A stretch of 64,000 bases of DNA from Isoperla grammatica. Lineage: Eukaryota; Arthropoda; Insecta; Plecoptera; Perlodidae. The position numbers and the translations under genes are program-made. Under the pieces are notes generated by a model. The model was given only the letters and a program-made list of their open reading frames with translations. It made no database searches and was not told the DNA's origin. Of the stretch, positions 5,644-60,313 are shown piece by piece; position 1 is the stretch's first letter; every line of letters starts with the position of its first letter. Location: positions 1 through 64,000 of the forward strand of contig CAMDTW010000312.1 in assembly GCA_945910005.1 (NCBI GenBank). Direction: 5' to 3'.

Positions 5644-5954
5644 TTTAATTGATTATTTAGGCTTAACGTCTCATATTTTTTGCAACGAAGCTAATCGAGA
5701 CGATGAGTGGGTGATATATGAAGATGAAATAGGGGGCTGTTTGGAGGAAAGGGGACAATAGGAGGGCGGGGTGGAAAGGGGAAGGTGGAGGAAAGGGGCT
5801 TGGGGTGTGGACTGCACTTCGTCTGACTTCTCCTCCTCGACCAGTCCAGCTAGGGTGGCCCTACCAGAAGCATACGCTTCCGCCGGAATAGCTCTAGGAA
5901 TCATTAAAGCACGCAAACCTGCCCACCGCGATAAGGTAGCAGTCCATGGGCAGG
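5644..5954 (-). mobile_element. SINE-like retroposon, type A, full length
   Basis: Head A begins at 5954 on the minus strand and the tail ends at 5644. It is flanked by the 12-bp duplication TTCTCTTCATGC (5632-5643 and 5955-5966). Confidence 0.85.
5809..5954 (-). ncRNA. HDV-like ribozyme candidate (SINE head A)
   Basis: The 146-nt head starts at the element's 5' terminus. P1 is CCTGCCC with GGGCAGG, P2 is GGACTGC with GCAGTCC, L3 contains UAUCGC, and a CGAA in J4/2 lies just before the P2 3' strand. See the 17478-17623 entry for the full fold. Confidence 0.55.
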
Positions 5955-9524: not shown

Positions 9525-12500
9525 AAAACTACGAATTGGCTTTGAAAAAGCTCAAAGAGGCACAATTTAACTCTGATCTAAGTAGTGGTACCGATCAAGA
9601 GGCGGGCCGGCATAAGAGACGCTGCAAATTTGACTCTGAAAATGCGCAAAGTAGGACTGATACTGAAAGCCAATTAGGTGTAGTACCGGTAACACCAAAC
9701 TCCCAGTTAGCGCATCCGCATATAGATGACCTTCCTCACTTTCCAGATATAACTGGTGTGTTTAATTCATTTTAAGCATGCACCACTAATTGCTTTAAAG
9801 TAATGTTAAGAGTTACTGTTTCCTTGATAAGATAAGATAGATAAGATAAATAATCCCCGTCTGGGCCCGGTGAAGAATAGGCCCAGAGTGACTCTGCTAG
9901 TCGTAAGAGGCGACAAAAGGAGACCCTGTCCCTTTCTCCCCCACTGTCCCACTAAATATTTCTCCTCCCACTTGGCCCTGCCCTCCCTTGCTGGACTCCC
10001 GTATGACGACCCACGCTACGTACAATGGATCTGATTCGGATGTGGCTTTATTCTTCATCACCATCTTTTTCATCTTCATTATCACCCGCTCATCGTCTCG
10101 ATTAGCCATTGTTGCAAAAATATGAGACGTTTAACCCCATTAATCAATCAATCAATCAATCGATAAGATAAATAAGATTAGATTGATAAAATACAATTTG
10201 CTGTTTTGCAGCTAAATATAATGCACACAAAAATGGTATTTCGATGTCACCAAAAAGATGCTCGTCACCTATTATAAAAAGTAAAAAAGCACAAACCAAG
10301 CCCACAGAGACATGCAAAACTACTTCGAGGCCAACTATGGATATTTCTCCCAAAGGTGACTAGGCCCCTGGGTGGTTTGTTATATTATATTTTCATATAC
10401 TGTACCATAAGATTGGGTGACTTGTCACAGTGTTCACTTTGTTTTGTCAGTGTTCACAATTACTGGATCAACATTCAAGATACCGTACCTACAATATGAA
10501 CAATGACAAAGGCTACAATGACATGAGAATCACTCTCCACTGGGTCTGTCCACCCCGCATCACTTAGGCTGTAGTGCATAATTTGTTAACGATTGACATG
10601 CTCTTTAACCAATTAAACTAAACTAGGTAGGGCCCAACTAATTATTTTTATGGATAATAATAATAATAATAATAATGACTTTATTAACAAATTATAATAA
10701 TACGGATAAATGTGAACATAAGAATGTATAAATGGGAATTCCTGGAACAAAAAACTGAAATGAGAGATGCTCATAACTTCCTACTTGTAAGTTTAGGGTT
10801 AACTCAATGTCTAAATTATGCAGTATAATATTTGATTGGGGGATAAAATAACAAAAAACCCACAGACGTGAAATTATTTTTAGGAAGTTTTTGGTTACGT
10901 AATTAAAATGTCGTCAACTTTTAACTTGCTGTTATCTGTATAAGTGCCTACAAAGTATTACTATATTTACTCGATTTTAGACTGCCATCAAGTAATGGTT
11001 GTTCAATTGATTGATTAATTGGGGCTTAACGTCTCATATTTATGCAACGATGGCTAATCGAGACGATGAGCGGGTGATAATGAAGATGAGAAAGATGATA
11101 ATGAAGAATAAAGCCACATCCGAATCAGATCCATTGTACGTCGCGTGAGTCGTCATACGGGAGTCAGGCAAGGGAGGGCAGGGCCAAGTGGGAGGAGAAA
11201 TATTCAATGGGACAGTGGGGGGGGAAAGGGGATTGGGGTGTGGACTGCACTTCGTCTGACTTCTCCTCCTCGACCAGTCCGGCTTGGGTGGCCCTACCAG
11301 AAGCATACGCTTCCGCCGGCATAGCTCTCGGGATCAACAAAGCACGCAAACCTGCCCACCACGATAAGGTAGCAGTCCATGGGCAGGATGGTTGTTCAAT
11401 CAAATTTCATAGAGTAGGCCTACCGAGGCCTAAGATATAAATATTATTGACAAATTGTTTTCTTAGCCTAATGCACATAGGTGGGATGTGCACCTTTTGA
11501 ACTTGATTTTCTAAATGCACTCTATAGGCCCTACTTCTTCTGTTTCTTATTACGAACATGCCCACATTTGGTTATTAATTATTATGCCATCATGCTGGAT
11601 ATGGTCAACCAGTAGAGACACACTTCGTTTTCCACCCTCTTCATGCTGCTCGGCATTCTATACTTTACGACTATATTTGCATAACTCGATATATTATGAA
11701 ACTTATTAACATATTGAAAATGATTTGCAGATTTGGAATCTGTTCATAGTGTTGGTTATTATAGATCATCTATTGATGAATCCCGTTCTTCATAAAAACA
11801 AGCACGTGTCAAGTCAAAGATAAACATGGTAAGCCAACATCGTGCTCGTGGCACCAATAGTGGGGAAACTGTCAACCAAGAAGAGATTAATTTAACTCCG
11901 TCTAACTTTGGTTTGTTACCGTATTTGGTAAATATTCTTCAATTTAAATATTGGTTGTATTTTATTATGTAACTTATATTAACTACAATTTTTTTGCAGA
12001 TTTGGAATCTGTTCATAGTGTCGCATCAATGGATGAATCCCGTTCTTCATCGAAACGAGCACGTGCCCAGTCAAAGATAAACAACCCAAGCCAACGTGGT
12101 GGTACCACTAGTGTTCAACTACCAAACGAGGGAACATCGGGGAATGATTTGACTATCAAAGGTGATAGTGAATTTGTGTATAGTTTGATTTCATATTGCT
12201 TCTAAAGCATGAATAATATGCTTGCAACTTCCAAGTTACAAAAATGTTAACCTAGTGTGCATCTTCATCTGGAGTTTGCATTAGCCTCGTTACCTTATCA
12301 GTATCTCTAGGGAAACTCTGTGAGACGCATTGATAAGCGAGCATTTCTACGTCCATGTCAAAGCATGTCAAAACTTAATAATACAAGGAAATAATTAAAA
12401 TGTCCCATTTCAATGTCTTCGTAATGTTCGTTTTCAGATCCCTATCAAATGAAAGTGTTACAGCTGCTTATTTCAATGAAAAAACAAGTTATGCACAACA

Positions 12501-13502: not shown

Positions 13503-15272
13503 ACTGTGTGTGTGTTATGTGCGATCCTGCCCCTCTGGCATGATGGTAGTGGGCCTTTGCCATGTGCTTCACGTCAGGTCGCTGTGTGTTATGTGCGATC
13601 CTGCCCGTCTGGCATGATGGTAGTGGGCCTTTGCCATGTGCTTCACGTCAGGTTGCAGGTCGCTGTGTGTTATGTGCGATCCTGCCCCTCTGGCATGATG
13701 GTAGTGGGCCTTTGCCATGTGCTTCACGTCAGGTTGCAGGTCGCTGTGTGTTATGTGCGATCCTGCCCCTCTGGCATGATGGTAGTGGGCCTTTGCCATG
13801 TGCTTCACGTCAGGTTGCAGGTCGCTGTGTGTTATGTGCGATCCTGCCCGTCTGGCATGATGGTAGTGGGCCTTTGCCATGTGCTTCACGTCAGGTTGCA
13901 GGTCGCTGTGTGTTATGTGCGATCCTGCCCCTCTGGCATGATGGTAGTGGGCCTTTGCCATGTGCTTCACGTCAGGTTGCAGGTCGCTGTGTGTTATGTG
14001 CGATCCTGCCCCTCTGGCATGATGGTAGTGGGCCTTTGCCATGTGCTTCACGTCAGGTCGCTGTGTGTTATGTGCGATCCTGCCCCTCTGGCATGATGGT
14101 AGTGGGCCTTTGCCATGTGCTTCACGTCAGGTTGCAGGTCGCTGTGTGTTATGTGCGATCCTGCCCCTCTGGCATGATGGTAGTGGGCCTTTGCCATGTG
14201 CTTCACGTCAGGTTGCAGGTCGCTGTGTGTTATGTGCGATCCTGCCCCTCTGGCATGATGGTAGTGGGCCTTTGCCATGTGCTTCACGTCAGGTTGCAGG
14301 TCGCTGTGTGTTATGTGCGATCCTGCCCCTCTGGCATGATGGTAGTGGGCCTTTGCCATGTGCTTCACGTCAGGTTGCAGGTCGCTGTGTGTTATGTGCG
14401 ATCCTGCCCCTCTGGCATGATGGTAGTGGGCCTTTGCCATGTGCTTCACGTCAGGTTGCAGGTCGCTGTGTGTTATGTGCGATCCTGCCCCTCTGGCATG
14501 ATGGTAGTGGGCCTTTGCCATGTGCTTCACGTCAGGTTGCAGGTCGCTGTGTGTTATGTGCGATCCTGCCCCTCTGGCATGATGGTAGTGGGCCTTTGCC
14601 ATGTGCTTCACGTCAGGTTGCAGGTCGCTGTGTGTTATGTGCGATCCTGCCCCTCTGGCATGATGGTAGTGGGCCTTTGCCATGTGCTTCACGTCAGGTT
14701 GCAGGTCGCTGTGTGTTATGTGCGATCCTGCCCGTCTGGCATGATGGTAGTGGGCCTTTGCAATGTGCTTCACGTCAGGTTGCAGGTCGTTGTGTGTTAT
14801 GTGCGATCCTGCCCGGCTGGCATGATGGTAGTGGGCCTTTGCCATGTGCTTCACGTCAGGTTGCAGGTCGCTGTGTGTTATGTGCGATCCTGCCCCTCTG
14901 GCATGATGGTAGTGGGCATTTGCCATGTGCTTCACGTCAGGTTGCAGGTCGCTGTGTGTTATGTGCGATCCTGCCCCTCTGGCATGATGGTAGTGGGCCT
15001 TTGCCATGTGCTTCACGTCAGGTTGCAGGTCGCTGTGTGTTATGTGCGATCCTGCCCCTCTGGCATGATGGTAGTGGGCCTTTGCCATGTGCTTCACGTC
15101 AGGTTGCAGGTCGCTGTGTGTTATGTGCGATCCTGCCCGTCTGGCATGATGGTAGTGGGCCTTTGCCATGTGCTTCACGTCAGGTTGCAGGTCGCTGTGT
15201 GTTATGTGCGATCCTGCCCCTCTGGCATGATGGTAGTGGGCCTTTACCATGTGCTTCACGTCAGGTTGCAGG
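13503..15272. repeat. 81-bp minisatellite, about 22 copies
   Basis: The unit begins TCGCTGTGTGTTATGTGCGA and ends CACGTCAGGTTGCAGG. Most units are 81 bp. The first and the seventh units are 74 bp and lack TTGCAGG. Sites vary among units: CCCCTCTGG, or CCCGTCTGG near 13605, 13850, 14730 and 15137, or CCCGGCTGG near 14812. Because 81 is a multiple of three, long open frames exist on both strands. I take them as by-products. The array starts ~125 bp past the stop of the DUF4806 gene. Confidence 0.95.
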
Positions 15273-15970: not shown

Positions 15971-17335
15971 CTACCTTCTTGTGATTGTGTCTTGTGAAGT
16001 GTGCATTTCTTAGTTACAAGTCGCAGGCTCGCAGAACCGACCTTGTTTGCAGGACACATCGCCACCTTCCATAGACTATAGTTCGTGAACGATAACACCC
16101 GTTTATGCTTTTTTTTCTTGCTTTTTATCTTCATTGCCGGATGTCGGACCGCCATCATTACACCGGGACCGAGTCCTACGTCAACGGATCAAGGATTGGT
16201 TTTTAGAAATGAACATGACTTTCTGCTAACGGGAGACAAATGGACACTTACCTTGGAGATAAATTTGGTTCAGTTTAGGGAGGAACTGTCGGTATTACTT
16301 CAAGAGTATAAAATTATACGTAATAAAGAACTGGAGTATGAAAATCAATGGCTTAAACACGGGGATGAATATTCCTTAAAAAAAAAAAAGCGCTATTGGG
16401 AAGCGTAATGACCAAGGAGTGTAAGTTGTTGACTACGGAAGCAGAAAGTCTATTAATAACATTGTCAGAGTTGGAACATATTACCCCAGCTAAACGCAAG
16501 ACCCGAGGGTTGATCGATTTTGGTGGAGGAGTATTGAAGTTTCTTTTTGGAACCGCAGTAATGGGAGATAAAGTTGCTTTGAATTCTAAATTACAAACAA
16601 CAACTCAGGCTTCGGATAAAGCATTACATTTTCTGGAAGAGCATGCTACTGTGTTGGATGGAACAGTAAAGTTAGTGAGAACCCATACTGAAATGTTGTA
16701 TAAATTAACAAATGCCACCAGGTTGCTGGCTAAACTCTCAAGTTCAAATCTTACATATTGTCTTAGACCAAATTCGGAATGAACTCAACCACTTTGTTCA
16801 AGCATGGGACACCATAGCAAATCAGCGTCTCAGCCCTTTCTTTCTTCCCCCTTCACAGTTATTAAAGGTGTTGTTGGATATTCAACCAAATCTTCCTAAG
16901 GATTTAACCTTTTTAACTGCATTACGTATAGAAGAAGTCCAAGTTTATTATGTCTTAGCTGACGTCTTTGCTGTAGCCACACCCCAAGGTATACGGTTGT
17001 TTATTGAGATGCCTTTGAAGTGTAGTAATAGGTTTTTCACTTTGTATCATGCTGAACCTCTACATACACTCACCTCAACTCCAGGTGTGTTTATGTTCAT
17101 TGATCCAGCTTATCCATACATAGCCATCTCTGAGGACCGAGAGGATTTTATTCACATGACCACTTCGGACCTTGCTTTGTGCCGAGGACATACGACCAAA
17201 GTATGTAACCCCGTGCGACAAGTTTTCCGTCACCCTCAAACCTCCCTGTTTGTACGCTTTAAGCCGGGGAGATAACATCCATGCCCAATCCCTGTGTAGA
17301 CATACATAAATTAGAAATCCCCAGGCAACTTTCAT

Positions 17336-17623
17336 TGATTGATTGATATTTGGGCTTAACGTCTCATATTTTTGCAACGAGGCTAATCGAGACAATGGGT
17401 GGGTGATATATGAAGATGAAATAGGGGGGTAGGAAAGGGGCAAGTAGGAGGGCGGGGTGGAAAGGGGATTGGGGTGTGGACTGCACTTCGTCTGACTTCT
17501 CCTCCTCGACCAGTCCGGCTAGGGTGGCCCTACCAGAAGCATACGCTTCCGCCGGCATAGCTCTCGGGATCAACAAAGCACGCAAACCTGCCCACCGCGA
17601 TAAGGTGGCAGTCCCTGGGCAGG
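17336..17623 (-). mobile_element. SINE-like retroposon, type A, in the env pseudogene
   Basis: It is flanked by the 12-bp duplication GGCAACTTTCAT (17324-17335 and 17624-17635). It is complete, from head A to the (AATC)n tail. Confidence 0.88.
17478..17623 (-). ncRNA. HDV-like ribozyme candidate, reference copy
   Basis: Numbering from nt 1 (window 17623) on the minus strand: P1 pairs nt 1-7 (CCTGCCC) with 31-37 (GGGCAGG). P2 pairs 10-16 (GGACTGC) with the last seven nt (GCAGTCC, 17484-17478). P3 pairs 18-20 with 28-30. L3 is nt 21-27 and contains UAUCGC. J4/2 reads CGAAGU, with the putative catalytic C at 17490. P1, P3 and L3 fall at nearly the same nucleotide positions as in the HDV ribozyme. 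A ~95-nt P4 domain contains hairpins GGAAGC/GCTTCT and TAGGG/CCCTA. Weak point: P1.1 is not an obvious G-C pair. Fold and activity are inferred. Confidence 0.6.
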
Positions 17624-17955: not shown

Positions 17956-18273
17956 ATAGATAGATATTTGGGCTTAGCGTCTCATATTTTTGCAACGAGG
18001 CTAATCGAGACAATGAGTGGGTGATATATGAAGATGAAATAGGGGGGTGTTTGGAGGAAAGGGGCAAGTAGGAGGGCTAGGTGGAAAGGGGCAAGTAGGA
18101 GGGCGGGGTGGAAAGGGGCTTGGGGTGTGGACTGCACTTCGTCTGACTTCTTCTCCTCGACCAGTCCGGCTAGGGTGGCCCTACCAGAAGCATACGCTTC
18201 CGCCGGCATAGCTCTCGGGATCACAAAGCACGCAAACCTGCCCACCACGATAAGGTAGCAGTCCATGGGCAGG
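17956..18273 (-). mobile_element. SINE-like retroposon, type A, in the env pseudogene
   Basis: It is flanked by the 15-bp duplication CAGCTATAGGAAAAG (17941-17955 and 18274-18288). It has an extra copy of the GGGGCAAGTAGGAGGG segment in its middle. Confidence 0.88.
18129..18273 (-). ncRNA. HDV-like ribozyme candidate (145 nt)
   Basis: P1, P2 and CGAA are kept. It is one nucleotide shorter than the others, within the P4 region. Confidence 0.5.
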
Positions 18274-20773: not shown

Positions 20774-21080
20774 GGTAGATTATTTGGGCTTAACGTCTCA
20801 TATTTTTGCAACGAGGCTAATCGAGACAATGAGTGGGTGATATATGAAGATGAAATAGGGGGCTGTTTGGAGGAAAGGGGCCAATAAGAGGGCGGGGTGG
20901 AAAGGGGAAGGTGGAGGAAAGGGGCTTGGGGTGTGGACTGCACTTCGTCTGACTTCTCCTCCTCGACCAGTCCGGCAAGGGTGGCCCTACCATAAGCATA
21001 CGCTTCCGCCGGCATAGCTCTCGGGATTATCAAAGCACACAAACCTGCCCACCACGATAAGGTAGCAGTCCCTGGGCAGG
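20774..21080 (-). mobile_element. SINE-like retroposon, type A, full length
   Basis: It is flanked by the 10-bp duplication TGATTTAGTT (20764-20773 and 21081-21090). Confidence 0.85.
20935..21080 (-). ncRNA. HDV-like ribozyme candidate
   Basis: 146 nt with P1, P2, L3 and CGAA conserved. Its first nucleotide abuts the target duplication. Confidence 0.55.
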
Positions 21081-28086: not shown

Positions 28087-28131
28087 ATACTTACCTGGCG
28101 TAGGGGTTACCGTGATCAACAAGGCGGTGAC
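28087..28131 (+). ncRNA. U1 snRNA-like 5' segment in LINE 5' UTR (copy 1)
   Basis: The 45 nt begin ATACTTACCTGGCGTAGGGG, as U1 snRNA does (family knowledge). They include the 5' splice-site recognition sequence ACTTACCTG. Stem-loop I can form: GTTACCG pairs with CGGTGAC around a TGATCAACAAGG loop. The loop differs from the usual GATCA-x-GAAG U1-70K site at two positions. Similarity to U1 stops after this stem, and LINE-specific sequence follows. Confidence 0.75.
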
Positions 28132-28380
28132 TACTCTGCCATCTAAACTGCCCTCTCGGTTGAAATATATCGATCGAGGTGCCAGTTCCTAACAGCTTTG
28201 GGATTCGCCTGTCTGAGTGGTGCGCACGCAAGATTACTCTCAGACAGGAATCCAACAAGCAGAAGAACAGAAGATTAAGGGGCATCACCCCGTGTCCTAT
28301 TCCTTCAAGTTTTAACTTCTTCCCCTTCCTCCCTTATCCTTCTCCTCCCTTCCTCCCTTCCCCTTTCTCCCCTTATCACC

Positions 28381-33658: not shown

Positions 33659-33703
33659 ATACTTACCTGGCGTAGGGGTTACCGTGATCAACAAGGCGGT
33701 GAC
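33659..33703 (+). ncRNA. U1 snRNA-like 5' segment (copy 2)
   Basis: Same 45-nt segment as copy 1, base for base. It lies 67 bp after the GTACAACGCAC motif instead of 43. The sequence before it differs from copy 1, whereas the sequence after it is shared. Confidence 0.75.
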
Positions 33704-34151
33704 TCTTGCCAAATAAACTGCCCACTCGATTGCAATATATCGAGGAGCAATTAACCAAACAGCTTTGGGATCCGCCTGTTCTGAGTGGTTCGAACGCAAG
33801 ATTACTCTCAGACAGGAATCCAAAAAGCAGAAGAACAGAAGAATAAGGGGCCTCACCCCGTGTCCTTTTCCTTCAAGTTTTAACTTCTTCCCCTTCCTCC
33901 CTTATCCTTCTCCTCCCTTCCTCCCTTCCCCTTTCTCCCCTTACCACCAACGCGATTGCGGAAATTCCCCCGCGATCGTGACGGTGTTGGGTCTTACACC
34001 CTCCCTCCCTTCCCTTATCCCGCTCACCAACGCGACCGCGGAAGGGTTCTGTCCCCCGCGCTAGTGGCGGTGTCCGGTGTTTAACCCTCTCCCTTCCCCT
34101 TCCTCACCCCCTCCCTCCCCTCCCAGATAGTAAAACTATCACATCCTTGCC

Positions 34152-38727: not shown

Positions 38728-39494
38728 TACCTCTATTCATTCCCATCAGGACCCTTCCTGAACTTACCTATTTATTCCTAGTAGTTGTAAACCCAACCTC
38801 TTCTTAATTTCATACTAATATCACTCTAAATTCTTTCTGCCTTCGGGCCATTTCATTCTTTTTCCAAACGTTCTGCCTTCAGCAACAAAACCATCACATC
38901 TGTATTCTAATCATACTTCTCTTAAGGACACTGTCCGGTCGAGATTGTCAAGCAAAAGGAAACTGTACCTTATTGCCTCCATCCAAAGCTCCAAAGTACA
39001 ACGCACATTATACACTTGATATATTGGAAGGCGAGCAAGGCGGTGACTCTTGCCAATTTAACTGCCCTCTCGATTGCAATATATCGTGGAGCAAGTACAA
39101 CAGCTTTGGGATTCGCCTGTCTGAGTGGTTCGCACGCAAGATTACTCTCAGACAGAAATCCAACAAGCAGAAGAAACGAAGAATAAGGGGCCTCACCCCG
39201 TGTCCTATTCCTTCACGTTTAACGTCTTCCCCTTCCTCCCTTAACCTTCTCCTCCGTTCCTGCCTTCTCCTTTCTCCCCTTACCAACAACGCGACCGCGG
39301 AAATTCCCCCGCGATCGTGACGGTGTTGGGTCTTACACCCTCCCTCCCTTCCCTTATCCCGCTCACCAACGCGACCGCGGAAGGGTTCTGTCCCCCGCGC
39401 TAGTGGCGGTGTCGGTTGTTTAACCCACCCTCTCTCTTCCCCTTCCTCACCCACTCCCTCCCCTCCCAGATAGTAAACTATCACATTCATAGCC

Positions 39495-48195: not shown

Positions 48196-48501
48196 TTGAT
48201 TATTTGGGCTTAACGTCTCATATTTTTGCAATGAGGCTAATCGAGACAATGAGTGGGTGATATATGAAGATGAAATAGGGGGCTGTTTGGAGGAAAGGGG
48301 CGAGTAGGAGGGAGCGTGAGAAAAGGGGAAAGGGGAGGAAAGGGGATTGGGGTGTGGACTGCTTTTCGTCTGACTTCTCCTCCTCGACCAGTCCGGCTAG
48401 GGTGGCCCTACCAGAAGCATACGCTTCCGCCGGCATAGCTCTCGGGATCAACAAAGCACGCACACCTGCCCACCACGATAAGGTAGCAGTCCATAGGCAG
48501 G
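48196..48501 (-). mobile_element. SINE-like retroposon, type A, in piggyBac copy b
   Basis: It is flanked by a 15-bp duplication with one mismatch, TTGTGTCGGTCTAGA (48181-48195) and TTGTATCGGTCTAGA (48502-48516). Confidence 0.87.
48356..48501 (-). ncRNA. HDV-like ribozyme candidate
   Basis: 146 nt. J4/2 is CGAAAA instead of CGAAGU, so the C-G-A-A core is kept while the following bases vary. P1 has CCTGCCT with GGGCAGG, which makes one wobble pair. Confidence 0.5.
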
Positions 48502-49089: not shown

Positions 49090-49738
49090 GAAATCAGTTA
49101 ACAACCTGTTGGATGTTTTCATTTATCAGACAGGAACTGTCATGAAGCATCGGGTAGGCCCAGTAATTTCTTAACTAAGGGATGATAAAAAAATGAAAAG
49201 AGTGGAATGGGATGAACTTGCTGGCGAGGAAGATGAAGAGTGTTTACTCAAATGTAACGACAATAAACCAGTCATATTACTTTCAACCTGTGTTGGAAGC
49301 GAAACACAGAGTAAGTGCATACCCTGGTCGAAAGACGAGAAAAAAAAAGTGGAAGTGGACATGCCTGCAGTGGTTAACATGTACAACACATACGTGGGTG
49401 GTACTGATTTATGCGATCGGTACATCGCGTGTTACCGTTGCTATATTCGACAAGAAAATGGACCATCAGGGTTTATAATCACTTTGTTCAGGTGGTGATT
49501 GTTAACTGTTGGCTCATGTATCGTTAAGTCCAATGTGCCAGCCAAAGAAAGATTGCCATTGCTCAAGTTCCGAATGCACGTAGGCCAGGCAATGGTTCAG
49601 TATGCTGGAGCTGTCATTGCTCCGACACCGGTACTTAGATGTCGGCCCCCCCCCCCCCCCCCCCCGACGGAGGTCGCCTTGTCGCGGTGGGGGGGCTCAC
49701 CATTCATGGTGCCAAACGATCGCCAAAAACAAAACAAA

Positions 49739-51881
49739 ATGGACTCTGTAAATATCCTGGATATACCCCAGGAGGGTACCACCACAGGTGGAGAATCCCT
49801 CCTTCTCTGTCACAAGAGGAGCAGCTCCTACGGTTCTGGGGGGAGCAACAGCGTCCTGGCGGTAACGCCACGAAGAGATGGGGTGACAGACCATTCGGTC
49901 ACCCCAAAGGAGAAGTCGAAGAAGAATAAGCAAAAGGGGATTTGGGGGTCCGTTGGAGACCTTCGGATTGGAAATCCATTTGCTCGTTCAGTAATTTTGA
50001 AGAGAACCCCCCCTAGTGGGGGTTCAAACAAGACACCCGCTTCCTCGGAAGATGAGTGCCGGGAGGAGGAAGTGCTCCTGGACGATTCCCCCGAGGAAGA
50101 GCAGGGAAAGAGAAAGCAGCGGGAAGAGGCAATTGATGCCCAGCTGCTGGAAAGGACCGTCATACGGATCTTAGACGGTTTGAAGGACCTGGAGGGATTG
50201 GTTACCACCAACACCAAGAGGGACATCAAGGACAAGACGTATGAGCTGAGTAGGCTGGCAGCCAAATTAAAGAGGGACAAGGTCCAAACCTTCTTTGGCG
50301 AGGTGGCCTCGCTTGCCTTGGCTAGCCAAGGGACGAAAGTCTCGAGGCATGAGCAGCAGGGAAAGCAGCTAACCTCAAGCAGCACACAGACGCCAGTGCA
50401 GGAGACCGCGCAGGTAGGCAGCAACAACACTTGTGACTCCTGCACGCATGCGACCAAAAGCACCTGTGAGGCAGGCACCCAGACGGAGGCATGGGTCCGC
50501 GGCGGGAAGCCACCGACGGTCGGGAGTCTGGAGGGAGTTAACTCCTACGCCGACTACGAGGCCATCGCGGGCCGCAAGTGGGAGGACTCTGTGTTCACAA
50601 ATGTGGCAGTCAAAGTAGGTAATCCCTTGACCACATCGGAGGATTCGGTCAAATGCGTCCTCGTGGAACCGAAAGACCCCGAAATGAATCTTTCCATCCA
50701 GCGGCATTACCGGGACAGGTTTCCCGGGATTGCAAATATGAAAGACGAGGTCGGGGTGCTGGAGCAGCTCACCCGGAAGAGGGGTCCTGGGGGAAGCGTG
50801 ACCGAAACTCTGCAGATTGTCGTCAAACTCCACCATGACGGGTCCGAGAAGGCTATATGGGACCGGCTCCAGGCCCTTAAGGAAGACTCCATCAACGACA
50901 AGGAGGTAGCCATCCATCACGTGGAGACGCTGTCTGAGGAAAGGCTTAAAAACCTGACTCCGGCGTTTTTCCGCGGGGTGGATGCGAAGGTCACAATCTT
51001 CACCACCGCCGCGAAGAGGGCAAAGACGCAGGCCAGCAGCACGGCACCAAAAGAGAAAGGGGCTCAGAGAGAGGAACACCTTGGCTCTCTCGATAGAGGT
51101 GGGGGACAAGCTCACCTATAAGGACGTCCTGAAAGACGTCCGGGAGGCGGTGGGTGGCAGGCCCGGTTGCGAATGCATCCAGTCCCTGCGGAGCACAAAA
51201 GAAGAAAAGCTCCTCATTGTCATGGACAAGAACGAGGACGCCATGGACAAGGTGCGGGAGCTCCTGGAGGCCAAGAGTCTCAAGGTGAGCCGGGTCGGCC
51301 TCCGGGCGAGGTCGGAGGTGGTTCACCTGAGAGGCCTCGATGAACTGGCCACCAAGGCAGAGGTCCAGACAGCAATAGAACAGGCCGTTGGGGCAGACCA
51401 GTCCATCAAGGTCGGGCCACTGAGGCCGCACCGCCAGAACACACAGGCGGTGACGGTTACGCTGAGCAGGCCGAAGGCCGAGCAGCTCACACAAAAGGGC
51501 CACTTGAGGGTGGGACCGGCCTGCTGTCCGGTGGAGAAAAGGCTGGAAGTGAAGAGGTGCCCGAGGTGTTGGGGGTACGATCATGCCGCCAACAAGTGTA
51601 ATGGCCCAGATAGATCGAAACTCTGTCGGAGTTGCGGGGGAGAGGGGCACCTGAGCAGAGACTGCAAGGAGAAGAAGCCCTCCTGCGTCCTGTGCAAAGA
51701 AGATCACGCCTTGGGCTCCGGGAGGTGTAAGGCCTTCAGGACAGCACTTGCGAAAGCCCGGAGACAGAGGAACGCCAAGGGCGACAGGAGGGAACCGTCT
51801 TTAAGCAGGGAGGCTATGGAGAGCGATTCCGAATCCTTCCCGCCCTTGGAGCCCTTGGAGGGGGGCAAGCATCAACCATAA
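49739..51881 (+). pseudogene. R1-clade LINE ORF1 (gag-like), one frame shift
   Basis: RNA-binding protein of the element. From the ATG at 49739 the first frame runs to about 51060 through a K/E-rich region and a segment ATKSTCEAGTQTEAW. The second frame takes over by 51075 (LALSIEVGDKLTYKDVLKDV, KEEKLLIVMD) and continues with three knuckles: CPRCWGYDHAANKC, CRSCGGEGHLSRDC and CVLCKEDHALGSGRC. The frames overlap at about 51000-51120, so one base has been gained or lost, or, less likely, a frameshift signal is used. The ORF2 start follows 32 nt after the stop. Confidence 0.65.
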
Positions 51882-51913
51882 AAAAAAACAAAAAAAAAAC
51901 AAAACAAAAGGAA

Positions 51914-54883
51914 ATGGAGCTCAGAACGCTGAATTTCCTGCAGACAAACGCCAACAGATGCTGGGGCGCTATGGACCTCCTGCTGGCCACGGTGCAGCAG
52001 TGGAACATAGACGTTGCAGTAGTCTGCGAGCCCAACATCAGGTTCTGTAAGAATAAATGGTCGCTCGACACCTGTCAGACGGTGGCGGTGAGAACATTTG
52101 GCGGGCGGGTACACCCGACTCGGACGGGCAGAGGGAATGGGTATGTTTGGCTCGAGACGAGCGAGTGCCTGGTCATCGGCGCTTATTTCTCGCCAAACGG
52201 GAATGCCCAACACCTGGAAATGCTCCTGCACGAGATAGGAAGAGCGGCCCGGGACGCCAAGGAGCCAGTCGTCTTGGCAGGGGACTTGAATGCAAAGTCT
52301 CCTCTTTGGGGTTCTCGGGACGAAAACGAGCGGGGTACAATCCTTGCCGAATGGTTGATGGGCAGCGGGATGTCGATCGCTAACGTGGGGGACAACCCAA
52401 CCTTTGAAAGAGGCGGCAGTTCCTCCGTGATCGACATCACGCTAGTGTCGCAAGGCACCACCGACAGGCTGATTGGGTGGAGGGTTCGCACGGAAATCGA
52501 GAACCTGAGTGACCACCACTACATCACGTTCGGCCTCACCGCACCCGACAGAAGACAGGATCACACGGCTGAACACCGCAGGAGATCCTGGAAGATCGAT
52601 GATGAAGCCCTCGAGGCGATGGCAGTAGAGATGGCCAGGGCAAACTTCGACGGGTCAACGGATAATCCGGGGAGGTGCGTCAGGGAAATCCAGGCGATCC
52701 TGAACAGGAACTGCGTGTCACGAAGGCCCAACTCGAAGAGGAGGCCCGTCCACTGGTGGTGTGAAGAGATCGCGACATGCCGGAAAACTTGTCTCCGGGA
52801 GAGGAGAAGGTTTACTAGGGCAAGCGGAAGAAGGAACACGGATACCGGGGGCGTTCGCCAAGCGAGAAACAGGTATAAGGTGGCCAAAAAGGCACTTAAG
52901 AGGGCAATCCACATAGCTCAGAGAGGAAAGTGGAATGAACTCTTGGAGTCAGTTAATAAGGATCCCTGGGGTATGGCCTACAAAGTCGTCACAGGGAAGC
53001 TCCGGGAGAAGGTGGCGAGCCCCGACGCGGCGGAAAGACTCCGGGTTGCTCAGTCTCTGTTCCCGACCCAACCCGCCATTTCGTGGGTCCGGGAGGAGGA
53101 GACTGGGGAGGTTCAGCCGTTCTCAGAGGCTGAAATCTTGGCTGCGGCAGACCGTATTAAGATCGGGAAGGCCCCTGGACCAGATGGGATTCCCCCGGTC
53201 GTGGTCAGGCTGTTTCTGCGGGTGCAGACGAAGGCCGCGGCGGCTTTAATGAGCGGCCTCCTCCGGAAGGGAGTTTTTCCAGCCGAATGGAAGAAAGCCT
53301 CTTTGGTTCTTATCCCTAAGCCAAAGAAGGCGGAAGCCGACGCCCTAACATATAGACCTATATGCCTCCTCGACGTCTTGGGGAAGGTCTACGAGAGGCT
53401 AGTCCTCCGTAGACTGGAACATGATCTAGAGGACGGAGAATGACTCGTCGAGGACCAGTACGGCTTCCGGAAAGGCCGATCCACGGTGGACGCGGTCCGC
53501 CGGGTCATCCACCTGGCCACCAGGGAGGAGGCAAGAGGCACATACAGACAAGGAAAGCCAGTGAGTGCCCTGATCGCCTTCGACGTACAGAACGCGTTCA
53601 ACTCTGCGCCATGGCCCGGCATCATGTCGGCCCTAGCTCGAAAGGGTATAAGCCCATACATTGTCAACATCGTGAAGAGCTACCTCTCGAACAGGACACT
53701 GGAAGTCAGCCCGGGCGTCTACCATGAGGTGACCTGCGGGGTGCCGCAGGGCTCCATTCTGGGGCCTACGCTGTGGAACTGCTTCTACGACAAGATGCTG
53801 AGGTGCCGCATCCCACACGTGAAATTGGTGGGTTATGCGGATGATCTCATCGCAGTCATCACGGGAACAAGCAAGACCACTCTGGAAGAGAACGGTAGTC
53901 GGGCCCTGGAAGTCATCGTTGGAGAGGCGACGCACATGGGCATAACCATCGCAGCACACAAGACGGTGGCGATCATCGCACGTGGCAGGAGAACGGTCAC
54001 GGAGGCTACGTTCCGAGCCGGGGGGATGACGATCACCACCAAGGAGATGATGGATTACCTGGGTGTGACCCTGAACAGGAACCTGTCAATGGAGTCTCAC
54101 GTGGACCGGGCCTCTGGGAAGGCCGCCCGGGCCATGAGGAAACTCATGAGCCTGATGCCCAACAAGAGGGGCCCGGCACAGAGGACTCGACGGATTCTCG
54201 CCTCTGCGGTGTACTCCGTCGTATTGTACGCTTGCCCTGTGTGGGAGACCGCGGTCCGACACGCCCACCATCGAGCTAAGGTCGAGAAAGTGCAGAGGGT
54301 GATCAACATCAGAGTCACCCAGGCATACATAACAGCGTCTTCAAACGCCCTGTGCGTCGTCGCGGGATATTCCCCGGTGGCCCTCATGATCGAGAGCCGC
54401 TGTAGGGTGTACCATGAGGGGGCACAGAGGAGAAAGGACATCGAAAGGGAGATCCTGGACCAATGGCAGGAAAGATGGGACCACTCCACGACGGGAAACT
54501 GGACAAGGAGACTTATCCCTAACATCCGGGGGTGGCTGGAAAGGAGGGCCGGGGAGACGGAGTACTTCCTGACCCAGTTCCTGATCGGCCACGGAAACTT
54601 CCAGACCTATCTCGTTCGGATAGGAAAGGAGGACGACGTCTCCTGCAGACACTGCGGGGGAGTGGACGACCCCGGGCATGCGGTACTTGAGTGCCCCCGG
54701 TGGGAAGACCTACGGAAGGAGACAGAGAGAGCCGTAGGCAAGAGCTTAACACCCGACTCAGTTGTCGCATTGATGACTGAGTCAGAAGAAGGTTGGAGCA
54801 GCATCCACTCCCTCGTCAGAACCGTCTTGTCGGAGAAAGAAGAGGCAGATCGTCAGAACCAAAACGGAAGACGAAACCCTTAA
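51914..54883 (+). CDS. R1-clade LINE ORF2: endonuclease and reverse transcriptase, one TGA
   Basis: 989 codons in one frame, with a single in-frame TGA at 53441. Endonuclease: NFLQTNANRCWGAMDLLLAT, VVCEPN, VLAGDLNAKSPLWGSRDENE and SDHHYITF. Reverse transcriptase: GKAPGPDGIPPVVV, YRPICLLDVLGKVYERLV, DQYGFRKGRSTVDAVR, IAFDVQNAFNSAPW, GVPQGSILGPTLWN and GYADDLIAVI. C-terminal zinc motif: CRHCGGVDDPGHAVLEC. The NANR start and the CCHC ending identify the R1 clade. The TGA falls just before DQYGFR, where a sense codon is expected, so it is probably a recent point mutation in an otherwise intact gene. Confidence 0.8.
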
Positions 54884-55469
54884 GAGAAAGACCAAGAAGG
54901 CCCAGCGCGACGCCGAAAGGGCTAGCGCGTGGAGGGCCAGAAAAAAGGAGAAAGAAGAGCAGGCGGCTGGTCCTTCAACCAGTGACATGTCCTCGACCAC
55001 CTGGACGAGGAGGCTGTGGGTCAGGGGATCGACACTCTTCAAGAAGAAGAAAGCCAAAGAAGATCAAGGCACATCCCCGGAAGACCAAGCCTCGGAAGAG
55101 GAGAAGGCCCCTACTCTGGACCCGGCAACAACTTACAAGGGACTGGAGGAGTCCTGCAGATTGGCCCGCATCGAGGAGGTGGGCAACTTGACGACGGCCC
55201 TGCGCCACGTGGTTAGGCTCAGGCACAACAAAGGGGACACAATATGCTTCCCGGTGCCAGAGGCGGTTGACAGGATGCAGCTACGGTGTGCGAACCTGCC
55301 AACCGATCCTAAAGAACTTCTGACACTGGTGGAAAAAGCCTTCAAGCGTAGAGGGGAGACGCTGGACCTAGACTCCGTCTACAGAGACTTCGTGAGGGCG
55401 CACGGCCGTCTTGCGATGGATGCCGCACAATCATTCCCTGCATGTTACTACCAGACCCGGCGCCCTTGA
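54780..55469 (+). CDS. Possible third ORF of the R1-clade LINE
   Basis: An open frame overlaps the end of ORF2 and continues to a stop at 55467-55469. The first ATG is at 54987, which gives 160 residues. The region before it is strongly basic (RKTKKAQRDAERASAWRARK). The later part looks folded: YKGLEESCRLARIEEVGNL, HNKGDTICFPVPEAVDRMQL, PKELLTLVEKAFKRRGETLD and FPACYYQTRRP. No known domain recognised. It could be a separate protein, or an ORF2 extension displaced by a frame shift near 54870. R1 elements usually have two ORFs. Confidence 0.4.
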   Translation, partial: SQKKVGAASTPSSEPSCRRKKRQIVRTKTEDETLKRKTKKAQRDAERASAWRARKKEKEEQAAGPSTSDMSSTTWTRRLWVRGSTLFKKKKAKEDQGTSPEDQASEEEKAPTLDPATTYKGLEESCRLARIEEVGNLTTALRHVVRLRHNKGDTICFPVPEAVDRMQLRCANLPTDPKELLTLVEKAFKRRGETLDLDSVYRDFVRAHGRLAMDAAQSFPACYYQTRRP

Positions 55470-55495
55470 TAGGGCACCGGTACTGTTTTAGACCG

Positions 55496-55540
55496 CCCCG
55501 CCTTTGAAGTAATGTCTAAACGACGGTTCCGAAGGCGGGG
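55496..55540 (+). other. 3' UTR stem-loop of the R1-clade LINE
   Basis: CCCCGCCTT (55496-55504) pairs perfectly with AAGGCGGGG (55532-55540) around a 27-nt loop. It may be the structure the reverse transcriptase recognises (inference). Confidence 0.5.
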
Positions 55541-55656
55541 TACGACCAGATGGAGTTTAGTGGGTATTTCGGTATCCGATGAGTCCCACACTACTGCTTG
55601 AAAGTGCTCGTAAATGAGTTCTCCATCTATATATATATAAAAAAAAAAAAAAAAAA

Positions 55657-58035: not shown

Positions 58036-58334
58036 TGATTGATATTTGGGCTTAACGTCTCATATTTTTGCAACGAGGCTAATCGCGACAATGAGTGGGT
58101 GATATATGAAGATGAAATATGGGGCTGTTTGGAGGAAAGGGGCAAGTAGGAGGGAGCGTGAGGAAAGAGGAAAGGGGATTGGGGTGTGGACTGCACTTCG
58201 TCTGACTTCTCCTCCTCGACCAGTCCGGCAAGGGTGGCCCTACCAGAAGCATACGCTTCCGCCGGCATAGCTCTCGGGATCAACAAAGCACGCAAACCTG
58301 CCCACCACGATAAGGTAGCAGTCCTTGAGCAGGG
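58036..58334 (-). mobile_element. SINE-like retroposon, type A, inside the MITE
   Basis: It is flanked by the 12-bp duplication ATCCCAATTAAA (58024-58035 and 58335-58346). The other MITE copy has the uninterrupted site at about 20240-20265, so both ends of the insertion are defined. Confidence 0.9.
58188..58333 (-). ncRNA. HDV-like ribozyme candidate
   Basis: 146 nt. P1 is CCTGCTC with GGGCAGG (one G-U pair). P2 and CGAAGU are intact. Confidence 0.5.
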
Positions 58335-59629
58335 ATCCCAATTAAAGAATTGAAATGTGACATTTGTGAAACTACACACACGGGTATTGACAAAATGGCG
58401 GCATTTCAAAGTATTGTTGAGATAACTCTTCTTAACCCTACTATCAGACAGGGTCACATTTGCCTCCGAATTATGCAGGGAAGCCTGTGTAGGAGTTAAC
58501 CCCGGGCTCAATTTAACATGGGGTTAGCGAGAGTTAAGGAGAGTTAAAAAAAATGTACAGGAATGAGGCCCCTGGCTGGTCGTTTCAAGCAGGCCTACCG
58601 ACCAGGACGAGAAGTCGTCATAGATGTAAGCCTCATGCTGTTCAAGTGTAGACTTGGATGGAAGCAATATATTCCCCAAACGCGGTCGCGATTTGGCCTA
58701 AAAACTTTTGATTTGTGTGAAGCTGTCACTGGATATGTGTAAAATTCCATCTTGTACACAGGCAAAGACGCCGCATATGACGAAGAGCACACGAAAGTGT
58801 TTGGTCTATCGGGGTCAGTTGTTTTGAGGCTCATGTCCGACCTGTTGAACACTGGTCGAACATTAGTTGTTGACAACTGGTATTCGTCTCCTCGCTTGTT
58901 TGTTGAGCTTTACCGTCAGCAGACAAACAGTTGCGGTACGGTTCGGTTGAACCGCAAAGAGATGCCGAAGGACATTGACGTAAAAGGAATCAAGAAGGGC
59001 GCAATGGAGGTCCGTTACAGTGACGAGCCCAAGATTTCTGCGTTAGTGTGGAAAGATAAGCGTCCGGTCTCTATGCTGTAAAGCTTTAACACGCCACAAC
59101 TGGTTGAAAGTGGCAAGATTGATCGGGAATCGGGGGCGCCTATTATCAAGCCAAACGTAGTTATCAACTACAATCAACACATGGGCGGCGTTGATCTAGT
59201 TGATCAAGTAACGGAAGCATACCCATCCATGCGAAAAACGATCAAGTGGTATACATTTTTTTTACACCAAATGGACATTTCGCTCTACAATTCCCTTGTG
59301 ATTAGGCGCTGCCTTTACCCAGAGAAAATCGGCTATTTGGAGTTCAGAGAAACTGTAGCCGCTGAACTACTGGAGATGCATCATGTCCCATCTGCACGAC
59401 ACAAGGGAGGAAGGAGGTCAACTGAGCCGGCCCCACTTTGCTTACAAGGACGACATTTCGTTGAGATGATCCCTCCTACTGCTAACAAACAGTTCCCATC
59501 GCGGAGATGTGTCGTGTGTAAAAAGCACGGCAATAGGAAGGAGACGAGATACATGTGCCCCGACTGTTGGGCGGAACCCCTGTGTCTCATTCCGTGTTAC
59601 AAAGTGTACCATACTGTAAAAGACTTCTA

Positions 59630-60313
59630 GTCATCTACATCAGCTTACCATAAATGCTTCACATTTTCTTTCACATTTTCAAACTTTTCACATTTTCGTC
59701 TTTTCACTTGAACAGTCTTTTACGCTTGAACTCTGGTGGTTTAGCCTTTCCACGTTAAAATAAAATACCCCATTTATGGTTGATTCCTTGGCGCTGGTTA
59801 TGGGGCTTTTCACTAAATATCAACCACAATGTATTGTAGGCCTAGATGTGTGTACAAAAAAAAATCAATATGTATTCATAACTGCATAAATAAATACATA
59901 GCTTTTTAGCATGTTACTTTATGAAAAAAAAATTAAAAAAACTTTTTTCATGGAAATTTTATTTCCAATATATCATCACCCTTGATATTTTTTATTTGGG
60001 GGTGAAATAACAAAGTTGCTCTATTTGGTAGTGAATTTTCCAAGATGGCCGCCAATTTTGAATTTTCCAAGGACCCAAACTTTAATTTTTTAGTACTTTG
60101 TAGGCCTGCTGCTATTGTGATCAGGCACATCCCATATGAATATGTATTGTTATATACTTCTCTTTCCATATACCGGATGGGCTATGCTAATTCACTAATA
60201 CTTCTAGCTCTTGTATACTGGTGGTATCATGTGCTGCTTGTTATTTGACACAAGCCTCAGGATATCCGTTGGAGGCCCACCTTCCAACCCCTGTACAAAA
60301 CCCGGATCCTGGC
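59630..60313. other. 3' flank of the piggyBac gene
   Basis: AT-rich with several A- and T-runs. No gene recognised, and no convincing piggyBac right end. Confidence 0.4.

Follow-up and report, generated by a model that had tools for sequence, protein, structure and literature searches.

The head of a high-copy SINE in the genome of Isoperla grammatica is likely to be an HDV-like self-cleaving ribozyme with an enlarged, putative P4 arm, and to give the element the trimming route proposed below. Seven of these heads lie in the window, as we call the whole 64,000-nucleotide stretch of DNA that was analysed, and all are on the minus strand. They had been pointed out in a sequence-only reading, were present at the starts that it gave, and measure 146 nt each, apart from the 145-nt copy at 18273 (heads are named here by the position of nt 1). 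The head at 17623 serves as the reference, and the features are as follows.

17336..17623, minus strand: whole reference SINE copy, with the target site duplication (TSD) ATGAAAGTTGCC
17478..17623, minus strand: reference head, 146 nt, putative HDV-like ribozyme with a large P4
17617..17623, minus strand: P1 5' strand, nt 1-7; cleavage is predicted at nt 1, which is also the TSD boundary
17587..17593, minus strand: P1 3' strand, nt 31-37
17608..17614, minus strand: P2 5' strand, nt 10-16
17478..17484, minus strand: P2 3' strand, nt 140-146
17594..17606, minus strand: P3 (ACC/GGU) and L3 UUAUCGC, nt 18-30 (P3 is 18-20/28-30)
17575..17579, minus strand: P4 5' strand, nt 45-49; two of the five pairs changed on both sides in the divergent head L049
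17495..17499, minus strand: P4 3' strand, nt 125-129
17487..17490, minus strand: CGAA; C134 (17490) is the candidate catalytic C, a putative role
5809..5954, minus strand: head, copy 1
11242..11387, minus strand: head, copy 2; the body belongs to a second SINE family
18129..18273, minus strand: head, copy 4, 145 nt
20935..21080, minus strand: head, copy 5
48356..48501, minus strand: head, copy 6
58188..58333, minus strand: head, copy 7

The anatomy described in the sequence-only reading was recovered in full. P1, of 7 bp and closing at nt 31-37, reads CCTGCCC/GGGCAGG in five of the seven heads and contains one G.U pair in each of the other two (48501 and 58333). All seven heads share the 7-bp P2 formed by nt 10-16 and the last seven nucleotides (GGACTGC/GCAGTCC), P3 (ACC/GGT) with the L3 sequence TTATCG(C/T), and a CGAA located two nucleotides ahead of the P2 3' strand; nt 134, at 17490, is a C as claimed. 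This arrangement is the nested double pseudoknot of HDV-like ribozymes, with a P1 of about 7 bp, a distal P2, and a 3-bp P3 directly before P1'. A locus at 3.54 Mb on contig C15 (L003) has the two SINEs of 17.3-18.3 kb of the window, with the same flanks, so that the window contig (C292) may represent a duplication or the other haplotype.

HDV-like ribozymes have an L3 with U...CG and a J4/2 starting with C-N-R-A, and the heads show both features. Both were written into a strict descriptor (a 7-bp P1, a P2 of 5 bp or more, a 3-bp P3, U...CG in L3, and C-N-R-A ahead of the P2 3' strand), all of whose rules were fixed after the heads had been seen. The descriptor matched the seven heads, each from nt 1, and nowhere else on either strand of the 64-kb window, and 60 dinucleotide shuffles of the window gave a mean of 0.05 matches (maximum, 1). 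Omission of the L3 rule raised the mean to 3.4 matches per shuffle and added, in the window itself, two places (10094 and 56684) and one-base-shifted registers of five heads, showing that the L3 rule bears much of the descriptor's weight. A core of only P1, P3, and L3 (gap of 8 to 15, no P2) was found in the seven heads and at 49659 on the plus strand and nowhere else in the window, compared to a mean of 0.1 and a maximum of 1 in 100 shuffles.

We then turn to Rfam. A covariance search with the HDV model had been proposed as a check on the heads; it gave no match at the Rfam cut-offs, but an HDV-class family ranked first below threshold. Over the whole 64-kb window, no HDV-class family matched at an E value of 10 or less. 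Run alone, the 17623 head had RF02682 (HDV-F-prausnitzii ribozyme) as the best of 4,227 families, with 14.9 bits (E = 1.1) and a match from nt 1, and for the head of L049, a divergent genomic copy, RF02682 was the sole match, with 15.5 bits (E = 0.84), from P1 nt 1 (model position 2). Both scores are weak and far below the RF02682 cut-off of 44; the two matches agree in family, strand, and start. The head of the second SINE family, run as a contrast, matched no Rfam ribozyme family. RF02682 resembles the SINE heads in its 7-bp P1, its 3-bp P3 with a 7-nt L3, and the position of P1' directly after P3', but it is bacterial and has a much shorter P4 part, and the SINE heads score below its threshold. 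Low Rfam scores and a descriptor written post hoc are what one would expect if GC-rich hairpins merely resembled the HDV fold by chance. We regard this explanation as barely credible given the shuffle controls, the covariation described below, and the coincidence of the fold with the 5' ends of both the SINE and a LINE.

The elements are genuine insertions. The TSDs place the 5' end of the element at P1 nt 1, as had been claimed, if the claim is read as within one base in either direction: one extra base is present in 58333. In the window, the TSD is exact and ends at nt 1 in four of the seven copies (17623, 11387, 21080, and 5954); that of 48501 ends there too, 1 of its 14 positions being mismatched, and that of 18273 is ambiguous by one base. 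A genomic sample of 45 distinct heads was assembled after dropping six flank duplicates and partial heads. Since the fetched copies were picked by similarity to the query, full-length copies are over-represented among them. Exact TSDs of 10 nt or more were found in 27/45 heads, ending at nt 1 in 18, at +1 in 4, at -1 in 4, and at -3 in 1, and the four +1 ends are ambiguous because the TSD then ends in C, the same base as nt 1. Thirteen heads had no exact TSD and three had a shorter one, and among these 16, 48501 and L027 have a TSD within 1 to 2 mismatches of 14; no recognisable TSD was seen in 14 of the 45 distinct heads. The two remaining heads are SINE-in-SINE cases and were left out of the tally. 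Template jumps at nt 1 were considered as evidence for a ribozyme-made 5' end and dropped, because the head-in-SINE junctions (L006 and L014) carry TSDs and resemble nested insertions.

Uniform 5' ends are predicted equally well by a fixed start site, and the head could be a structured 5' region whose end is set by transcription from an internal pol II or pol III promoter and not by cleavage. What usually defines a SINE is a pol III promoter located in its head. The reference element contains one A-box-like match with one mismatch, and has neither a B box (GWTCRANNC) within one mismatch nor a TTTT. No pol III-type head (tRNA, 7SL, or 5S) was recognised in it; no tRNA was found in the 64-kb window, and no tRNA, 5S, or 7SL family matched the window in Rfam at an E value of 10 or less. 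A start site, moreover, needs no conserved pseudoknot at nt 1, yet P1 and P2 both show compensation. We therefore consider a transcription-defined 5' end unlikely. Promoter and ribozyme need not be mutually exclusive, as the trypanosomatid Pr77 combines promoter activity with a ribozyme, according to the parts of two reports consulted here (PMC8190864, PMC4748587).

Within the common family of heads, covariation is nearly absent. Among 96 such heads, in a sample enriched for changes at nt 34 by its search pattern, it is confined to pair 4-34, which has A-U in place of G-C in 2, C-G in 1, and G.U in 19, and is unpaired in 17. A second alignment, consisting of the seven window heads plus L049 and L052 (9 heads, 22 pairs, 198 cells), is paired in 96.5% of its cells, and 7 of the 22 pairs are changed on both sides with pairing kept (two in P1, three in P2, and two in P4, nt 45-49/125-129). 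None of 500 shuffles was as high on four of five covariation measures; on the remaining one, further pair types, 35/500 were. Slid controls gave 0 to 3 both-side-changed pairs versus 7 in the true alignment. All seven changes derive from one row, L049, whose P1 is C7/G7 and whose P2 is unlike that of the common family and has one mismatch; its P1 mismatch vanishes if J1/2 is 3 nt long. There are nine L049 copies with 97 to 100% identity, and since they look like one insertion amplified within a larger repeat, this covariation amounts to a single evolutionary comparison. L049 lies within an inverted SINE tail. Compared by eye with this tail, it has its own 5' end either on the first C of P1 or immediately beside it; no clear TSD is present. 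The divergent head has an 82% relative, L117, which is decayed around P1, and L052 pairs 6/7 positions in P1 and 6/7 in P2 and has a different tail. The pseudoknot is conserved between the two head families, with compensatory changes in both crossing helices.

The heads depart from the canonical HDV fold in several respects. In canonical HDV-like ribozymes, the catalytic C directly follows P4; the SINE heads do not show this, having four nucleotides (CAGA) between the covariation-supported P4 and C134, other registers being possible. The CAGA spacer counts against the term "canonical HDV-like ribozyme" and not against a head that works like one. P1.1, the pairing between L3 and J1.1/4, consists of at most A23-U38, with U22 opposite U39 in 95 of 96 heads and opposite G39 in one. 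The nested minimum free energy fold of five of the seven heads pairs approximately nt 43-51 with 133-141 and buries J4/2. In 17623, the separate helices of the pseudoknot add up to -55.4 kcal/mol, with no penalty included, versus -55.9 kcal/mol for the nested fold, and co-transcriptional folding would favour the pseudoknot because P1 and P3 would form first.

The P4 and J4/2 deviations, the weak P1.1, and the competing helix are also what a relic would look like, that is, a former ribozyme inherited from a LINE and inactivated here by its long P4 arm and CAGA spacer, with the fold persisting as a remnant or for reverse transcriptase (RT) binding. Against this, the strict descriptor holds in seven of seven window copies, 5' ends are still at nt 1, and P4 pairs of the divergent head are maintained by compensatory changes, so that we rate a relic as somewhat more doubtful even than a transcription-defined 5' end. 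The sequence-only proposal of an HDV-like ribozyme on a SINE-like element is upheld by the fold, the TSD-defined 5' position, the compensatory changes, and the top-ranking Rfam family, and is weakened by the deviating P4 and J4/2 and by the stability of the competing helix.

The element is SINE-like in being short, flanked by TSDs, terminated by a tail repeat, (AATC)n/(TATC)n, and present in high copy. In the 874-Mb genome assembly (603 contigs), the SINE query gave 2,964 candidates at first look, 40 of which were scored, and a 25-base head core with at most two mismatches was found at 2,327 places, compared to 0 for the reversed control. Among the matches listed, the core is densely clustered on contig C1 at 56.6-57.5 Mb and 66.8-67.3 Mb; in the first cluster, the orientation mostly flips from plus to minus near 57.0-57.2 Mb, in the second almost all copies share a strand, and both look as if larger units were duplicated. 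Exact patterns of the head recovered no homologue from viral contigs or genome contigs outside the source genome; a single pattern match there (L001) was set aside as chance, with no P1 or P2 by eye.

The same head is found on more than one kind of element. The copy at 11008-11387 (minus strand) is a mosaic that joins a ribozyme-type head to the body of the second SINE family, and the same mosaic recurs in no fewer than five of the genomic copies fetched (L083-L085, L100, and L101). In L052 and L086 the head occurs with other tails. The head behaves as a module that is combined with two or more bodies and with different tails. The second SINE family has a 68-nt head with the module GTCGTAAGAGGCGAC and occupies ten places in the window, some as head-to-tail dimers:

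9900, plus strand: second SINE family
63026, 62960, 27544, 22532, 15925, 15857, 6195, 4198, 4128, minus strand: second SINE family

Its tail resembles that of the ribozyme SINE, and a similar module lies inside the L049 SINE. A truncated twister was considered for its head because one review mentions, in the part consulted, unpublished twisters at the 5' ends of RTE elements (PMC7761336); Rfam gave no support for it. As an exact pattern in viral contigs, this head had 0 matches.

On the preferred reading of the SINE head as a ribozyme, the element would be read through from outside transcripts, and the head would fold into the nested double pseudoknot and cut the RNA just before nt 1. Cleavage would remove the upstream sequence and leave a uniform 5' end. 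The trimmed RNA would then be copied by target-primed reverse transcription, presumably by a LINE that recognises the (AATC)n/(TATC)n tail.

A second, compact fold, absent from the sequence-only reading, lies at the 5' end of a LINE in the window.

49659..55656, plus strand: LINE with frames for an endonuclease and an RT, ending in poly(A)
49659..49724, plus strand: compact HDV-like fold at the LINE 5' end, 66 nt

A model built on the SINE heads and run on the window and 46 genomic loci gave a weak match at 49659 (21.7 bits, E = 7e-4). The fold consists of a C7/G7 P1, J1/2 GAC, P3 GCC/GGT, L3 TTGTCGC, J4/2 CCAAAC, and, by eye, a P4 of CACCA/TGGTG with a 4-nt loop; P2 is GGAGGTC/GATCGCC in the window copy, with one mismatch, and the 3' strand reads GATCTCC in the other five copies. 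The fold lies 80 nt before the ATG at 49739, and an in-frame ATG is located inside it at 49706. A genome search yielded six copies of the LINE, all of which were scored. The strict descriptor, with a shorter P4 minimum, holds in four of them (L103, L104, L105, and L107); a single P2 base excludes the window copy, and the first P1 base excludes L106. Likeness among copies begins at the first of seven C's in L104, L105, and L107 and one base later in L106, the C run being longer in the window copy and L103, and three of the four descriptor-passing copies start at P1 nt 1. Because of the C run, P1 of the LINE is easy to form by chance. No Rfam family matched the LINE fold, and nested folding of this 5' end was no better than that of shuffles (z = -0.10), a measure that is uninformative on a pseudoknot. 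The core GTC(A/G)CCTT(A/G)TCG(C/T)GGTGGGGGG is common to the LINE and the L049 SINE head. The LINE probably uses a compact relative, or a convergent version, of the SINE head's device.

In three of the six LINE copies (L105, L106, and L107), the 5' flank is (TTAGG)n, which is not the case in the other three; L105 and L107 are possibly not independent because they lie 6.4 kb apart on contig C16. Telomeric LINEs of the R1 clade, of the TRAS/SART type, have an APE-type endonuclease and an RT and insert in TTAGG repeats, and its flanks suggest that the LINE at 49659-55656 may belong to this R1/TRAS/SART group. The best protein matches of its RT frame are unnamed metagenome proteins (68 to 71%), followed mostly by unnamed or insect RT entries, one of which is named R1DM-like. 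The window LINE was considered as the partner for the SINE tail and rejected: it ends in poly(A) and not in (AATC)n, and therefore does not supply that tail. At approximately 55570-55620 (plus strand), its 3' region contains CCGATGAGTCCC...TTGAAAG, which may loosely resemble a hammerhead core with changes.

Taken together, the SINE and LINE folds allow a broader reading, to which we give about an even chance: within this one animal genome, HDV-like ribozymes may serve as an interchangeable 5'-end device, in a compact form on a LINE targeting telomere repeats and in a large-P4 form on dispersed SINEs whose bodies and tails are exchanged. The SINE would then be ribozyme defined and not pol III defined.

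The suggestion in the sequence-only reading that a short non-autonomous family with such a head would be notable overstated its novelty, since, according to the parts of the papers used here, the R2 and R2/R1 SIDEs (PMC3414825) and NARTco/SIDER (PMC4035085) precede it. The R2 and R2/R1 hybrid SIDEs of Drosophila consist of an HDV-like ribozyme and a LINE 3' end, and their in vitro cleavage has been shown; like the SINE, the R2/R1 SIDEs are non-autonomous, carry an HDV-like head on the 3' end of another LINE, and have TSDs. They differ in occupying the R1 site of 28S rDNA, in using the R2 ribozyme, and in copy numbers up to about that of R2 (PMC3414825, part consulted). The SINE, unlike them, is dispersed; its head is present in thousands of copies and has a large P4, and nothing points to an rDNA target: the varied flanks and TSDs of the SINE do not place it at the R2/R1 site of 28S rDNA. 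The trypanosomatid elements L1Tco/NARTco and SIDER have Pr77 HDV-like ribozyme heads, and NARTco and SIDER are likewise short non-autonomous retroposons with such a head. These are kinetoplastid elements with shorter ribozymes (constructs named 78 to 126) and a Pr77 that is also a promoter, and our comparison with them is one of architecture (PMC4035085, part consulted).

HDV-like ribozymes are present at the 5' ends of LINEs of the R2, R4/Dong, L1, and RTE clades, with cleavage at the element junction in some; none is described as inserting in telomere repeats in the part of that paper used here (PMC3774820), while the LINE found here adjoins TTAGG in three of six copies. Animal hammerhead retrozymes are also SINE-like non-autonomous elements with a self-cleaving ribozyme, but they belong to another ribozyme class, with a hammerhead motif and circular RNA (PMC7761336, part consulted). 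Among the titles and abstract openings of open-access papers that we searched, none mentions an HDV-like head on a telomeric LINE or on a dispersed animal SINE. Within those papers, three things appear to be new: a SINE that is dispersed and high in copy number and whose HDV-like head is found on at least two bodies, the large-P4 variant, and a telomere-repeat LINE with a head of this kind.

If the SINE head is a ribozyme, a high-copy SINE that has no recognisable pol III promoter and is freed from host transcripts in this way would represent a second SINE route outside trypanosomes and rDNA, and host transcripts containing the element could be affected by its potential cleavage sites, which number in the thousands. 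If the device is interchangeable, the SINE would jump from read-through transcripts genome-wide and trim its own 5' end. Confirmation of the LINE would extend the ribozyme habit to telomere-inserting elements, for which a transcript of TTAGG plus element would need such trimming.

Several other elements were noted in the window. Tandem copies of a jockey-like LINE occupy 28-46 kb, and two of them start with about 45 nt like the 5' end of U1 snRNA:

28087-28132, plus strand: U1-like start, Rfam U1 25.6 bits, below cut-off
33659-33704, plus strand: U1-like start, Rfam U1 35.2 bits, below cut-off

A further copy, near 39036, keeps only about the last 13 nt of the U1-like start. These starts resemble the R2-to-U12 template jump, as described in the consulted part of PMC3414825. 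A frame at 16709-17275 (plus strand) matches the Pfam envelope protein family Baculo_F with 35.3 bits and is probably an errantivirus-like remnant. At 13575-15272 there is an 81-bp satellite of 21 copies with 98% matches, in which several frames are open. Finally, a frame at 59082-59630 (plus strand) contains the transposase domains DDE_Tnp_1_7 and zf-Tnp_2 and is presumably of the piggyBac type.
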